Assembly: GCF_018141545.1 (NCBI RefSeq)
Contig: NZ_CP064356.1
Span: 3,609,001 to 3,673,000 of the forward strand
Direction of reading: 5' to 3'
DNA length: 64,000 nucleotides
Source of the DNA: Miltoncostaea oceani
GTDB lineage: Bacteria; Actinomycetota; Thermoleophilia; Miltoncostaeales; Miltoncostaeaceae
Within the stretch, counting starts at the first letter, position 1, and each line of letters opens with the position of its first letter. The notes under the pieces are model-generated. The model saw only the letters and a list, made by a program, of their open reading frames with translations. It ran no database searches and was not told the origin of the DNA. The position numbers were made by a program, and so were the translations under genes. This document shows positions 5,327-62,456 of this stretch, one piece after another.

Positions 5327-6055
5327 CTAGAGCACCCGGGAGAGGAACCGGCGGGTGCGCTCGTGGGCCGGGGCGCCGAGCACCTGGTCCGGCGGGCCCT
5401 CCTCGATGATCCGCCCGCCGTCCATGAAGACGACGCGATCGCCGACCTCGCGGGCGAACCCCATCTCGTGGGTGACGACGACCATCGTCATCCCCCCCTC
5501 GGCGAGGGAGCGCATCACCGCGAGCACGTCCTTCACGAGCTCGGGGTCGAGGGCGCTCGTGACCTCGTCGAACAGCATCGCCTCGGGCTCCATCGCCAGG
5601 GCGCGGGCGATCGCGACCCGCTGCTGCTGGCCACCCGAGAGGCGCGCGGGGTGCTCGTCGGCGCGGTCGGCGAGGCCGACGCGGCCGAGCATCGCGAGGC
5701 CGCGCGTGCGGGCCGTGGCGCGGTCGACGCCGAGCACCGTCGTCGGCGCCATCGTCACGTTGTCGAGGACGGTGCGGTGCGGGAACAGGTTGAACGACTG
5801 GAAGACCATGCCGAGGCGCCGGCGGAGCGCGTCGACCGGGGCGCCGGGGGCGGTCAGCTCGTCGTCGCCGAGGAAGACGCGCCCGGAGGTGGGGCGCTCC
5901 AGCAGGTTCAGGCACCGCAGGAGGGTGGACTTGCCCGAGCCGGACGGCCCGATGACGCAGACCACCTCGCCGGGGGCGACGTCGAGGTCGACGCCGCGCA
6001 GGACCGTGGTCTCCCCGAAGCTCTTGGTGACGGCCTCCGCCCGGATGGCGCTCAC
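5327..6055 (-). CDS. Polar amino-acid ABC transporter, ATP-binding protein (GlnQ/HisP type)
   Basis: The ATPase subunit of an amino-acid importer, 242 aa. Walker A is GPSGSGKST, the signature is [15 protein letters not shown], Walker B is [12 protein letters not shown] and the H-loop is VVTHEMGF; all are intact. EVTSALDP is characteristic of the GlnQ/HisP/GltL subgroup. The GTG at 6055 overlaps the permease stop by 4 bases. Operon order is binding protein, permease, ATPase, all on the minus strand. Confidence 0.95.
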
Positions 6056-29274: not shown

Positions 29275-30225
29275 TCAGCGGATCACGCGCTCCACCCTCG
29301 AGCGGGCCTCCTCGTCCTGCGGACGCAGGTGGTACCGCTGGATCATCTCGCTCACCAGGCCGATCGTGAACAGCTGCACGCCGACGACGATGAGCAGCAC
29401 CCCGAGGAGCAGCAGGGGGCGGCCGCCGATGCCCTCGCCGGTGAGGCGGAGCACGGCGAGGTAGGTGCAGATGACGACGCCCACCAGGATGAAGAGCATC
29501 CCGATGCCGCCGAACAGGTGCATCGGGCGCTGGCGGAAGCGGCCGACGAACAGGATCGTCAGCAGGTCGAGGAACCCGCGCAGGTACCGCTCGAGGCCGT
29601 ACTTGCTCTTGCCGTACGGGCGTTGCCGGTGGTTGACCGGCAGCTCGCTGACGCGGAAGCCCTCGTTCGCGGCGAGCACCGGGATGTAGCGGTACTGGTC
29701 GCCGGTGAGGGCGAGCGAGCGGACCACCTCGGAGCGGTACGCCTTGAAGCCGCAGTTCAGGTCGTGGAGGCCGATGCCGGACATCGCGCCCGTCACGCCG
29801 TTGAAGACCTTGGAGGCGGCGCGCTTGCTCCACGCGTCCTGGCGGTCGCGCTTCCAGCCGCTGACGAGGTCGGCGCCGGCCTCGAGCTCGTCGAGCAGGC
29901 GGGGGATCTCGGCGGGGTCGTCCTGCAGGTCGCCGTCGATCGTGACGATCGCGTCGCCGCGGGCCTCGCGGAACCCGGCCATGAGGGCGGCGGCCTTGCC
30001 GAAGTTGCGGCGCAGGCGCACCACGGCGATCTCGGGTTCGCTCGCCGCGAGGTCGGCCAGGATCTCCGACGTGCCGTCGGTCGATCCGTCATCGACGAAG
30101 AGGACCTCGGTGCGACGGCCCAGCCCGCGGAGCACGCGGAGCAGCTCCTCCGAGAGAGGGCGCACCGACTCACGCTCGTTGTAGACCGGGACGACGACCG
30201 AGACGAAGGCGAGGCGAGCGGCCAC
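29275..30225 (-). CDS. GT2 polyprenyl-phosphate glycosyltransferase (DPM1/ArnC-like)
   Basis: A 316-aa membrane-bound glycosyltransferase that would make a polyprenyl-phosphate-linked sugar on the cytoplasmic face. GT-A motifs: VVVPVYNERESV, FVDDGSTDGT, NFGKAAALMAGF, and the metal-binding DGDLQDDP (D-x-D type). The acceptor region is NCGFKAYR and RPYGKSKYGLERYLRG. Two C-terminal helices (LFGGIGMLFILVGVVICTYLA, LLLLGVLLIVVGVQLFTIGL) anchor it. It is probably the donor-making step for the PIG-V-like and DUF2079 proteins downstream. GTG start, 8 bases after a TAGCAT box. Confidence 0.9.
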   Translation of the reverse strand: MAARLAFVSVVVPVYNERESVRPLSEELLRVLRGLGRRTEVLFVDDGSTDGTSEILADLAASEPEIAVVRLRRNFGKAAALMAGFREARGDAIVTIDGDLQDDPAEIPRLLDELEAGADLVSGWKRDRQDAWSKRAASKVFNGVTGAMSGIGLHDLNCGFKAYRSEVVRSLALTGDQYRYIPVLAANEGFRVSELPVNHRQRPYGKSKYGLERYLRGFLDLLTILFVGRFRQRPMHLFGGIGMLFILVGVVICTYLAVLRLTGEGIGGRPLLLLGVLLIVVGVQLFTIGLVSEMIQRYHLRPQDEEARSRVERVIR

Positions 30226-30233
30226 CGGCGCGG

Positions 30234-30239
30234 ATGCTA
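30234..30239 (-). promoter_or_regulatory. Leaderless-type -10 box (TAGCAT) of the minus-strand glycosylation operon
   Basis: On the minus strand TAGCAT, 8 bases, then GTG 30225. It marks the start of the seven-gene run down to 23310. Confidence 0.4.
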
Positions 30240-30265
30240 CCAGCGCCCGGGCGACCCCCCGGCGG

Positions 30266-31327
30266 TCACCACCCCTCGGCGATCGCGGGGCGGAAGGCCC
30301 GGTCGAGGCGCATGAATCCGCCGGCCCCCTCCGCGAGGTCGCTCGCCAGCGTCACCGCCGCCTGGCCTCCCGTGCCGACGCGGCGCCAACGGACGCTGGC
30401 CTTGCGTTCGCTGCCGGTGAGGAGCCTCATCTCGACCTGCGACTCGAAGCTCGCCCGGTAGAAGTCGTTCGAGAGCAGGCCGCCGCACTGGATGAGGTCG
30501 ATCCCGTTCACCAGCTCCTCCGACGTGAACCGGCGCCGGAGAGTTCCGGCCGCGACGTCCGCGAGCTCCTCCGCCTCCGCCTTCACGATGTTCTGCGACG
30601 CCTTGTCCCCCCTCTCCGCCGCGGCACAGACCTCGGCGGCGAAGCGCGCGATCTCCTTCTTCTGGTCCTCGTGACCCACGGCGAGGTCGCGCATCTTCTC
30701 GATGAGCCGCCGGTTGTTATCGCCCCTCACGCCGTACTGCTGCTTCAGGCGCTGGAGGAGGACCGAATCCGTCCCCGCCTCGTGGTCGCGGTACGCCTCC
30801 CTGATGCCGCGCATCCCGATCCAGAAGCCGCTGCCCTGATCGCAGGCGACCCATTCGTGACCTCCGGCCTGGTGGAGGACGTCGGAGGCGTCCTGCACGA
30901 TGACCGTCGATCCCGTGCCCGCGATGATGATCCCGTCCGCGCGTGAGCCGAGGAGGAGGGACACGCCGTCGTTCGCGGCGCCCGCGGACACGATCGCGCC
31001 GTCGAGCAGCTCCGGGAGGAGGCTCTCCATCGCCGCCAGGTACTCGTCGCGGGTCCATGGGGAGAACCCCGCGGCGCTGATCCACAGATGGACGCGCAGC
31101 GCGCCCGGGGAGTGGTCGCCGAGATGCAGCTCCAGCGGAGCGAGGATCCGGCGGAGGGTGCTCGGGATCAGCTCGGGTTTGAGGGCTCCCGAGAGGGTGT
31201 GGCCGACCTCGTAGGAACCGAAGATCTCGACGCTCCCGCCGACGGACGTGGCGAGCGCGACGTTCGTCCGCGTCCCCCCGGAGTCCACGCCGACGTGCAC
31301 CTCCTGACTCACCGGATCTGGAGCCAT
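30266..31327 (-). CDS. BadF/BadG/BcrA/BcrD-type ATPase (N-acetylglucosamine-kinase-like)
   Basis: A 353-aa ASKHA-fold protein. Phosphate-1 is GVDSGGTRTNVALA, a connect/phosphate-2 block is AGAANDGVSLLLGSRADGIIIAGTGSTVIV, and a later strand is QGSGFWIGMRGIREAY. Relatives are GlcNAc kinases or activator ATPases of radical dehydratases; the activator type carries 4Fe-4S cysteines, which are not seen here, so the kinase type fits better. The codon use is noticeably less GC-biased and richer in AG-ended codons than its neighbours, suggesting transfer. The ATG at 31327 lies inside the end of the next gene upstream (19-base overlap), so the two are a unit. Confidence 0.82.
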   Translation of the reverse strand: MAPDPVSQEVHVGVDSGGTRTNVALATSVGGSVEIFGSYEVGHTLSGALKPELIPSTLRRILAPLELHLGDHSPGALRVHLWISAAGFSPWTRDEYLAAMESLLPELLDGAIVSAGAANDGVSLLLGSRADGIIIAGTGSTVIVQDASDVLHQAGGHEWVACDQGSGFWIGMRGIREAYRDHEAGTDSVLLQRLKQQYGVRGDNNRRLIEKMRDLAVGHEDQKKEIARFAAEVCAAAERGDKASQNIVKAEAEELADVAAGTLRRRFTSEELVNGIDLIQCGGLLSNDFYRASFESQVEMRLLTGSERKASVRWRRVGTGGQAAVTLASDLAEGAGGFMRLDRAFRPAIAEGW

Positions 31328-31695
31328 CGTCCCTCCCGCGTCATGAAGCCCTCGGCCAGGAGCTGCTCGACGGCCTCGTCGATGTCCGCGGCGGGGCTAC
31401 CGTGGTCGATGAAGTACGCCACGATCGACTGGCTGCGAACGCGACCGCTGGCGTCCTGGGTGGCGAGGGCGCGCTCACGGACCGCACCGATGAGGTCTAC
31501 GGCCGGAGCGGACGTCGCAGCGAGCCGATCGGGGTCGCCACCCAGGCTCAGGACGACGGTGCGGAGCGCGGCGATCTGATCACGGAGCACCGCGTTCTGG
31601 TCGTTCGCGGAACGCGTAGCCCGCCGCTCGAAGAAGAACCCCGTGAGGAGACCGAGCACGAGACCGACCGCGATGCTCACGATCTCTGACCACAC
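31309..31695 (-). CDS. Small membrane protein with coiled coil and C-terminal helical domain
   Basis: A 128-aa protein with one N-terminal membrane helix (IVSIAVGLVLGLLTGFFFERR), a short coiled coil (DQNAVLRDQIAALRTVVLSL), a linker and a C-terminal region (VRSQSIVAYFIDHGSPAADI, DEAVEQLLAEGFMTREGRWLQIR) whose helix-helix-strand pattern resembles a winged helix. The GTG at 31695 is chosen because GGAGG lies about 7 bases upstream; an in-frame GTG at 31764 lacks this. No family was recognised. It overlaps the BadF-type gene by 19 bases. Confidence 0.65.
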   Translation of the reverse strand: MWSEIVSIAVGLVLGLLTGFFFERRATRSANDQNAVLRDQIAALRTVVLSLGGDPDRLAATSAPAVDLIGAVRERALATQDASGRVRSQSIVAYFIDHGSPAADIDEAVEQLLAEGFMTREGRWLQIR

Positions 31696-31718
31696 GGGAG
31701 CCCCCTCCACCGGTCCGT

Positions 31719-31803
31719 CCACTGGTCGCGCACCCCGGGATCCGCCGACCAATCGTTGTGTCACCGCTATCTACAGACGCGGAGGCCCCGGCACCACTGG
31801 TCG
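31719..31803. repeat. Pair of 10-bp direct repeats (CCACTGGTCG) upstream of the BadF module
   Basis: CCACTGGTCG occurs at 31719-31728 and again at 31794-31803, 75 bases apart (start to start), in the region before the module's first start codon. They could be operator half-sites for one regulator, or chance. Confidence 0.35.
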
Positions 31804-31873
31804 ACGGTCGGATCTGGAGCCCTGGTGCCGGCGGCCCGTCGTGGGGCACCCGGCACCCACCCCGGCGGCGGGG

Positions 31874-33610
31874 TCAGTCATGCGGGTGGACGGCGCCCGG
31901 GCGGCGGGGGCGGGTGAACGCCGGCCGCGGGCGGCGGGGGCGCGAGCTGCCCCCGCCGAGGCCGCGCTTGGCGACGAGCACGCACAGCGACCAGATGCAC
32001 GCGACGACGAGGACGCCGAGCACGAGGCCCGTCGCGCCGCGCGCGCCGGTGGCGGCCGTCTCGGCGAGGTACCAGACCGCGAACGGCGTGCCGGTGTCGA
32101 GGAGGCCCGCCATGGAGACGATCAGCGCGAGCACCGGCAGCACCGCGACGAACGCCAGGCCCGCGAGGTGCCACGGGCGGCGGGCGGCGGTCGCGAGCAG
32201 CGCCGCGTGGGCGGCGGGCAGCGCGAGGACCAGCGCGTAGGGGCTGAGGACCCACATCACGAGCAGCAGGACGGCGAGGGCCGCGAGGGCCGCGGTGCCC
32301 TCCGCGGCGGGCGCGGTGGGACGCCGGGCGGCGCGGCGGCGCACCACGACCCACGTCAGGACCGCGGCGCCGAGGGAGATCACCACGGCCAGGCCGGCGA
32401 GGGCGCCGAAGCGCGCCTGCGCGGGGATCGGCGGCGACCCGGCCGCGGTGCCGGGCAGCAGGCCGCCGAGCACCAGCAGGTGGGCGGTGACCAGACCGGC
32501 GACGATCGGCAGGCTGCGGCGGCCCACGGCGCGCAGGCCGTCCACGAGCGGGACACGGGCGCGCCGCTGGCGGGCGACGATGTCGAGCGTCAGGACCAGC
32601 ACCGGCAGGATCAGCAGCAGCAGCGCGAGGCGGGCGATGGTGGGGCGCAGCGTCCGGTCGGCGACGAGCAGGCTGCCGTCCGCCGCCGGGGCGGTCGTCT
32701 GGTCGAGCACGTTCAGCAGGTCGTTGGCCGCGTTCGACACGAGCTCCATGCGCTCCGCGGTCGGGGGCCTCCCCGGCCGCAACGGCGACTCGGAGCGCCC
32801 GGAGAGCGTCACCGCCGGGAGGCCCGCCGCGATCGCGGCGCCCTGGTCGCCGAAGGTCTGGGGCACGCCGAGCCGCAGGAGCTGACCGGTCAGCGACCGC
32901 GTCGCGGACGCCCGTCCCCCGGCGCGCTCGATGGACGCCTCCGCCATCGCCGCGAGGCCGAGGGCGTGCCGGTCGGTGCGTCCCGCGTCCCAGATGTGGA
33001 CCCGGTCGCCGGTGGTCTCCCCGGGCGCGTCGAGCACGATCGCGGCGGACAGGGGGAACGCCGAGAAGCGGCTGAGGAACCAACGCATGCCGGCGTTGCC
33101 GACGGTCGACCCGTCAACCGAGACGAACAGGTGGGGCCGTTGGTGGCGGGTGGTCGCCGACACCTGGGCCATCCGCAGCAGGACCGCCGTGGAGCTGGTG
33201 CCGGCGCTGACGCCCGAGGGGGTGTCGCGCGGCGCGACGACGACGATGCCGGCGCGGGCCCGCCCGGTGCCGCGCCCCGGCACGACGAGGTAGACGTTCT
33301 GCAGCCGGACCGTCTCGCGGCCGCTGCGGGCCTCGAGGTCCTGGGTCTGCACCCGGCCCGCGCCGCCCGGCACCTGCGACAGCTGGTCCTGCACCCACCG
33401 CGCCGCCGCGAGGTCGGGCGCGGAGCCCGGCGGGCGCTCCGGGGCGATGCCGGCGAGCTGCCCGTTCAGGTCCAGCGCGAGTTGCCCGTCGATCGTCGAC
33501 GGGAGCGCCGGCTCCGGCCCCCGGTCGGGGGTCTCGAGGGTCAGGAGCGCGACCACGAGGGCGACGCCCGCGACCAGCCAGCAGGTGCGATAGAGGCGGG
33601 CGTTCAGCAC
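31874..33610 (-). CDS. M28-like membrane protein with degenerate peptidase site
   Basis: A 578-aa protein. An N-terminal membrane helix (CWLVAGVALVVALLTLE) leads into an M28 aminopeptidase-like domain (about 40-300), then about seven C-terminal helices and a basic tail. By alignment with the M28 pattern the first metal site H-x-D reads P-R-D, the bridging Asp reads Ser (AGTSSTAVLL) and the Glu-Glu pair reads Asp-Gly (FVSVDGSTVGNAG); only the Asp of AAIVLDAPGE is kept. It is therefore unlikely to be an active zinc peptidase. The GTG at 33610 is preferred; an ATG at 33667 would add 19 residues. Confidence 0.75.
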   Translation of the reverse strand: MLNARLYRTCWLVAGVALVVALLTLETPDRGPEPALPSTIDGQLALDLNGQLAGIAPERPPGSAPDLAAARWVQDQLSQVPGGAGRVQTQDLEARSGRETVRLQNVYLVVPGRGTGRARAGIVVVAPRDTPSGVSAGTSSTAVLLRMAQVSATTRHQRPHLFVSVDGSTVGNAGMRWFLSRFSAFPLSAAIVLDAPGETTGDRVHIWDAGRTDRHALGLAAMAEASIERAGGRASATRSLTGQLLRLGVPQTFGDQGAAIAAGLPAVTLSGRSESPLRPGRPPTAERMELVSNAANDLLNVLDQTTAPAADGSLLVADRTLRPTIARLALLLLILPVLVLTLDIVARQRRARVPLVDGLRAVGRRSLPIVAGLVTAHLLVLGGLLPGTAAGSPPIPAQARFGALAGLAVVISLGAAVLTWVVVRRRAARRPTAPAAEGTAALAALAVLLLVMWVLSPYALVLALPAAHAALLATAARRPWHLAGLAFVAVLPVLALIVSMAGLLDTGTPFAVWYLAETAATGARGATGLVLGVLVVACIWSLCVLVAKRGLGGGSSRPRRPRPAFTRPRRPGAVHPHD

Positions 33611-33644
33611 GGTGCGCGACCGCCGTGGGCCCGGCGGCTGGGGG

Positions 33645-33650
33645 TAGAGT
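33645..33650 (+). promoter_or_regulatory. -10-like box (TAGAGT) of the otsA-moaC-mogA unit
   Basis: TAGAGT, 38 bases before the GTG at 33689. It lies in the divergent region shared with the M28-like gene. No clear -35 was found. Confidence 0.35.
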
Positions 33651-33688
33651 GTGGCACGTCCTCCCATGCGACGGGCGCGGAGACCCCC

Positions 33689-33814
33689 GTGGACTACGCC
33701 GACGACGATCGGGACACCTACATCCTGTCCGACCCGGCCCCGGCCGGTGGAACCGAGACGGAGGCGCGCGTGAGCCGGGACAGGGACGACGGCACGAGGG
33801 GCGGCGGGGCGTGA
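33689..33814 (+). CDS. Small acidic protein coupled to trehalose-6-phosphate synthase
   Basis: A 41-aa frame (VDYADDDRDTYILSDPAPAG and an Arg/Asp/Gly-rich end) with a GGAG seven bases before its GTG. Its TGA overlaps the otsA start as GTGA. It is too short for family recognition. It may be a real microprotein or a leader peptide that sets translation of the downstream gene. Confidence 0.45.
   Translation: MDYADDDRDTYILSDPAPAGGTETEARVSRDRDDGTRGGGA

Positions 33815-62382: not shown

Positions 62383-62456
<74 letters not shown>

Follow-up and report, generated by a model that had tools for sequence, protein, structure and literature searches.

Described relatives and gene layout

In the ROK family a sugar-kinase fold is fused to a winged helix, and in radical-enzyme activators of the HgdC type a cluster-ligating cysteine lies next to the AGTG motif. 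The nearest PDB matches of the ATPase described here are 2e2n (HEXOKINASE), which we take to be from Sulfolobus tokodaii, and 8zo3, a MurNAc/GlcNAc kinase. For MurK of Tannerella, Asp95 is described as the catalytic residue and Asn119 and Asp141 as contacts of MurNAc (PMC10465942).

We analysed a stretch of 64,000 nucleotides (the window) from the genome of Miltoncostaea oceani (4.54 Mb in 3 contigs), in which the gene of a BadF-type ATPase overlaps a small gene. The features of the locus are as follows.

30266..31327, minus strand: gene of a BadF/hexokinase-type ASKHA ATPase, 353 amino acids, ATG start with GGGAGGGACG immediately 5'
31309-31764, minus strand: longest open reading frame of the small gene, 151 amino acids, from the ORF list
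31309..31695, minus strand: small protein in its likely true frame, 128 amino acids, GTG start, from GGAGG, codon-position GC and hydrophobicity
31696..31764, minus strand: 5' extension of the longest small ORF, probably an untranslated leader, codons 1-23 being without a coding GC pattern
30249..31873, no strand: inserted stretch at its maximum extent, judged by the empty sites of G019, G020 and further relatives
30233..30248, minus strand: GGGCGCTGGTAGCATC element, putatively promoter-like, just 5' of the GT2 start and within the noted stretch 30225-30248

The 19-base overlap of the two minus-strand genes, which the preliminary description had reported, was confirmed at 30266-31327 and 31309-31764 and suggests that the small gene and the ATPase gene are translated in a coupled manner. 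Within the small ORF an in-frame GTG is found at 31695, with GGAGG 8 nt 5' of it. GC at third codon positions (GC3) is 0.61 in codons 1-23 versus 0.84 in later codons, and from codon 24 on the distribution of GC over codon positions looks coding. Because of the GGAGG and the absence of a coding GC pattern in codons 1-23, we placed the start at GTG 31695, which probably yields a protein of about 128 amino acids. Ribosome-binding-like sequence precedes both this GTG and the ATG of the ATPase at 31327. On balance we lean towards reading the locus as an acquired operon, in which a hexose/amino-sugar kinase gene would be accompanied by a translationally coupled gene for an orphan, membrane-anchored small protein.

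Family, motifs and phylogeny of the ATPase

The earlier assignment to the BadF-type ASKHA ATPases held. The protein matches Pfam family BcrAD_BadFG (PF01869) with 49.8 bits, above the gathering cut-off of 31.5, and scores 59.6 bits against the GlcNAc kinase model NagK_SO3507 (NF046058), failing the curated cut-off of 370. The match to 2e2n (E 5.8e-9) aligns significantly within ATPase residues 130-272 only, and the similarity to the MurNAc/GlcNAc kinase 8zo3 is weak (E 6.3e-6).

The motif set of hexokinase/NAGK-type proteins (phosphate-1, catalytic Asp, phosphate-2 and sugar loop) is present in the ATPase and is also kept in the sole close relative found. DSGGTRTN, N119-D120, AGTGS (136-140) and GGHEWVACDQGSG are the counterparts of the ATP-binding, base and sugar-loop elements. 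In the alignment with 8zo3, phosphate-1, ND, phosphate-2 and the GG...D.GS loop are all kept. The hexokinase 2e2n shares AGTGS, with phosphate-2 and GG..W...D.GS..W.G kept and phosphate-1 kept weakly. The phosphate motifs and the ND with the catalytic Asp are common to the ATPase and the MurNAc/GlcNAc kinases, and D120, which aligns at the ND of 8zo3, would match the catalytic D95 of MurK (PMC10465942). The ATPase departs from these enzymes at two positions. Where the loop Asp is followed by an acidic residue in 8zo3 (Glu) and 2e2n (Asp), both the ATPase and its close relative have Gln, and Asn119 of MurK, expected after GTGS by the numbering in PMC10465942, would be Thr in the ATPase and Ser in the relative.

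The gene is most likely an acquired hexose/amino-sugar kinase gene. The protein would hold ATP through DSGGTRTN and AGTGS and phosphorylate a hexose or amino sugar at its C6 hydroxyl, with Asp120 acting as the presumed base. Since the GlcNAc kinase score is 59.6 bits against a cut-off of 370 and the branch leading to the protein measures 2.34 changes per column, the substrate may however be a non-sugar. Neither protein gave a structure model good enough for fold searching, and the ATPase model was too poor for pocket inspection.

Radical-enzyme activators of the BadF/HgdC type belong to the same Pfam family, but such a role is extremely improbable for this protein, whose sequence is nearest to sugar kinases. 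It contains three cysteines (162, 234 and 281), none of them before or next to AGTGS (136-140), in agreement with the earlier remark that the activator cysteines are missing.

A search for relatives across genome contigs with six 8-residue patterns, which detects close relatives only, found one close relative of the ATPase, encoded in a Propionibacteriaceae bacterium UBA5174 MAG (locus L004). The two proteins are 49% identical over nearly the full length and share GGH[ED]WVACDQGSGFWIG. The L004 protein was the sole strong ATPase match in 293 genomes sampled from its order, the others reaching E 1.8e-14 or weaker. In a tree of 64 rows the ATPase and the L004 relative form a 100/100 clade on the long branch mentioned above, deep and apart from the 62 other BadF-type rows and with an unsupported placement (51/7). 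The tree contains no supported grouping of the ATPase with BadF-type proteins of its own class; the vertical grouping that the preliminary description had named as evidence against its proposal has no support there. By this analysis, the ATPase is the second member of a predicted, very divergent BadF/hexokinase subfamily. The ATPase has no match in phages, viral contigs or plasmids. The L004 relative has none in phages or viral contigs and one remote match in plasmids (30% over 49%).

Insertion site and base composition

The neighbour at 31874-33694, called M28-like by eye and without a Pfam match at E <= 0.001, occurs in 40 of the 42 genomes of the order, Miltoncostaea oceani included. Loci were taken from 29 of the 39 relatives with this neighbour, and 25 of the 29 were assessable (4 excluded). 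In all 25 loci the flanking genes are separated by 5-182 bases between aligned parts, in one of them (L065) with just 83 residues of GT2 aligning; the spacing in Miltoncostaea oceani is 1648 bases, gene to gene. No BadF or small-protein match lies between the flanking genes in any of the 25. In the remaining 41 genomes of the order the ATPase has no match at E <= 1e-5 and the small protein no convincing one; a single match of 40 residues (E 0.0056), inside a 574-amino-acid frame of G003, was treated as probable noise.

The empty site in 25 of 25 relatives' loci, together with the absence of a convincing copy of either gene from the other 41 genomes, indicates that the pair was gained in Miltoncostaea oceani, and bears out the earlier view of a transferred unit. 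By comparison with these sites the pair is an insertion of at most 1.6 kb, apparently an acquired operon. Its maximum extent is bounded by the upstream neighbour (31874-) and by the element upstream of the GT2 gene, so the ends are given as limits. As an example of a small operon seemingly inserted at a conserved position of the chromosome, the locus is a clear one. The ends of the insertion carry no significant repeat, no integrase family was matched in the 10 neighbours scanned, and the sole tRNA gene in the window lies at 62383.

The GGGCGCTGGTAGCATC element of GT2 is retained beside the insertion. The sequence GCTGGTA[AG]CAT stands directly before the GT2 start and resembles a promoter with almost no leader; 4 of the 25 loci, those of G020, G019 and two more relatives, carry it as written in the corresponding position. 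In G019, of the same genus, the M28-like gene matches in two pieces (1136-2853 of L040), which suggests a frameshift or a sequencing error.

The inserted genes are poorer in GC than the window by about 5-6 points (ATPase 70.2-70.3%, small ORF 69.3%, window 75.6%). GC3 is 0.924 for the ATPase and 0.815 for the small ORF, compared with 0.972 and 0.952 in the ORFs on either side, so that the earlier statement of codons less GC-biased than in both flanks is correct for the immediate neighbours. Among the 46 frame-scored ORFs, which still contain some shadow frames, the small ORF ranks 7th lowest in GC3 and the ATPase 14th lowest, and the ATPase by itself is therefore unremarkable.

Two copies of CCACTGGTCG 5' of the pair had been singled out in the preliminary description, and proved to be at chance level. 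For stretches of 184 nt, an exact repeat of at least 10 bases occurred in 74 of 1000 shuffles, and 167 of 639 real stretches taken from the window contained one; this 10-mer was present at least twice across the whole window in 5 of 100 shuffles. The 13-mer CGGATCTGGAGCC at 31313 and 31809 was found in two copies in 0 of 100 shuffles when tested alone. It had been chosen post hoc, and in the fair test, for any repeat of at least 13 bases in the 1608-nt insert, 123 of 1000 shuffles contained such a repeat, as did 95 of 156 real stretches. Both repeats were accordingly rejected as insertion or operator marks. The spacer at 31765-31873 is very GC-rich with foldable hairpins, whose stability is no better than that of shuffles (z 0.27).

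The small protein and its relation to the ATPase

The small protein contains one hydrophobic segment, at residues 27-45 (Kyte-Doolittle 19-mer mean 2.15), followed by RR..R, in line with the single membrane helix described earlier. A short coil and a possible winged-helix-like C-terminus complete it. Because RR..R follows the helix, the positive-inside rule would place the remainder in the cytoplasm; the coil and the C-terminal part should therefore be cytoplasmic and the helix should lie in the inner membrane. The winged-helix-like tail was seen as a hint only, with DUF5817_CT at E 0.013, below the cut-off, and a poor single-sequence model (mean pLDDT 46.6). LapA_dom and UPF0154 were rejected as identities of the membrane helix, their resemblance being below the cut-off.

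Searches of the order, class, phylum, phages, viral contigs and plasmids gave no convincing homologue of the small protein, and in the last three no match at all; the phylum and class searches, like that of the L004 order, are samples. In 396 phylum genomes, marginal matches (E 3.5e-4 to 6.7e-4) were found in 4 other genomes. In 389 class genomes, matches at E <= 0.01 were found in 26 other genomes, one being the order match at E 0.0056 (the genome total of 1991 in the class search counts some genomes more than once). The best match, L103 (E 4.3e-5), was rejected, as it is a frame opposite longer frames, one of them RNase HII-like by eye. The remaining marginal matches are partial, most of them in frames of 300 amino acids or more.

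We also compared the small protein with 50 BadF-type loci, which represent 49 places, L004 and L069 being identical. None contains a homologue; the best value, E 0.49, belongs to a match in L004 that is about 3 kb away from the ATPase gene, and the genome of the L004 relative has no convincing match (best E 0.11). A further 14 class loci (L089-L102) stand outside the 50-locus test, and their genomes have no small-protein match in the class search. The 53 other ATPase-positive phylum genomes and the 4 with a marginal small-protein match do not overlap, if the same 396 were drawn. As no homologue was found, the pair has been seen once. Of the two-component unit proposed earlier, the overlapping genes in this genome stand, and the BadF-type loci did not show a second case.

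The stretch 5' of the related ATPase gene in L004 is mostly hidden, 240 bases (5558-5797) being read as N. Leaving the N run, one frame stays open for 47 codons (5798-5941), has a C-terminal hydrophobic stretch (Kyte-Doolittle 1.81) and stops at a TGA within ATGA, whose ATG is the first start of the ATPase frame (5938). The other two frames contain stops, and the open frame has no ATG, GTG or TTG start in its readable part. These joint features were noticed post hoc; the locus has 161 stop-ended open stretches of at least 47 codons, of which 3 reach this hydrophobicity, 16 have ATGA at their end and a single one combines the two. Given the hydrophobic end of this frame and its overlap with the ATPase frame at ATGA, the L004 ATPase gene may be preceded by a small membrane gene that bears no visible relation to the one in the window. 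In both loci the ATPase gene is overlapped by an upstream frame with a hydrophobic segment. The two frames differ in that the L004 one is mostly hidden by N and has its hydrophobic part at the C-terminal rather than the N-terminal side, and no similarity between them was found.

The sole link between the two proteins is adjacency in one genome. An alternative that we regard as unlikely, though worth weighing, is that the small ORF, lineage-specific or decaying, is a passenger lying by chance 5' of an acquired kinase gene, with no shared function. The noise-level matches in the class and phylum samples and the lack of a homologue in the 50 BadF-type loci are what such a passenger would predict. 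The coding-like GC from codon 24, the start with its ribosome-binding-like site and the 19-base overlap with the ATPase argue against it, as does the possible small membrane frame that also overlaps the L004 ATPase frame.

The same L004 frame, the only one of the 161 with both features, would suit a mobile signalling or defence pair, in which a membrane-tethered small effector or sensor is gated by the ASKHA ATPase binding a sugar or nucleotide ligand. Sporadic acquisition, overlapping genes and a rare, divergent ATPase clade fit this scheme too, but we consider it improbable. The small protein has no second case in the 50 BadF-type loci or the L004 genome, and related ATPases are absent from phages and viral contigs, with one remote partial match in plasmids. 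The defence role that had been thought conceivable received no positive support: neither protein has a PADLOC match at E <= 1, and the scanned neighbours are conserved or generic genes, none of them a defence gene by Pfam. Two PADLOC matches among 8 neighbours (mad2 and oxidoreductase) fall on a Pfam methyltransferase and a luciferase-like monooxygenase and are, by these profiles, evidently generic domains. In the absence of a PADLOC match for the pair, a defence context or recurrence, a defence system was rejected.

The pair resembles the ROK family in having an ASKHA sugar-binding fold and, here only possibly, a winged helix. It differs in its separate genes, its membrane helix and its BadF rather than ROK type. 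We hold it quite doubtful, and put it forward as speculation, that the locus is a rare mobile module comparable to a ROK regulator divided between two proteins. The divergent BadF-type ATPase would sense a cell-wall or nucleotide sugar, or phosphorylate it, and would gate a small protein of the inner membrane that evolves fast; the L004 frame would be a second, unrelated-looking partner.

In the favoured reading of an acquired kinase operon, the small protein would be anchored in the inner membrane, its coil and C-terminal portion facing the cytoplasm, and may tether the kinase there or control it. Should small membrane proteins be regular partners of such ATPases, they would provide a new means of coupling between the membrane and a sugar-kinase fold; one clear case and one half-hidden case (L004) do not allow a regular partnership to be concluded.

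The N run in L004 is an assembly gap or a masked stretch. The same 20 bases stand on both of its sides (5538-5817), and the letters after it can pair, by eye, as a short inverted repeat. The L004 ATPase gene is convergent with genes that resemble those of hydrogenase maturation.
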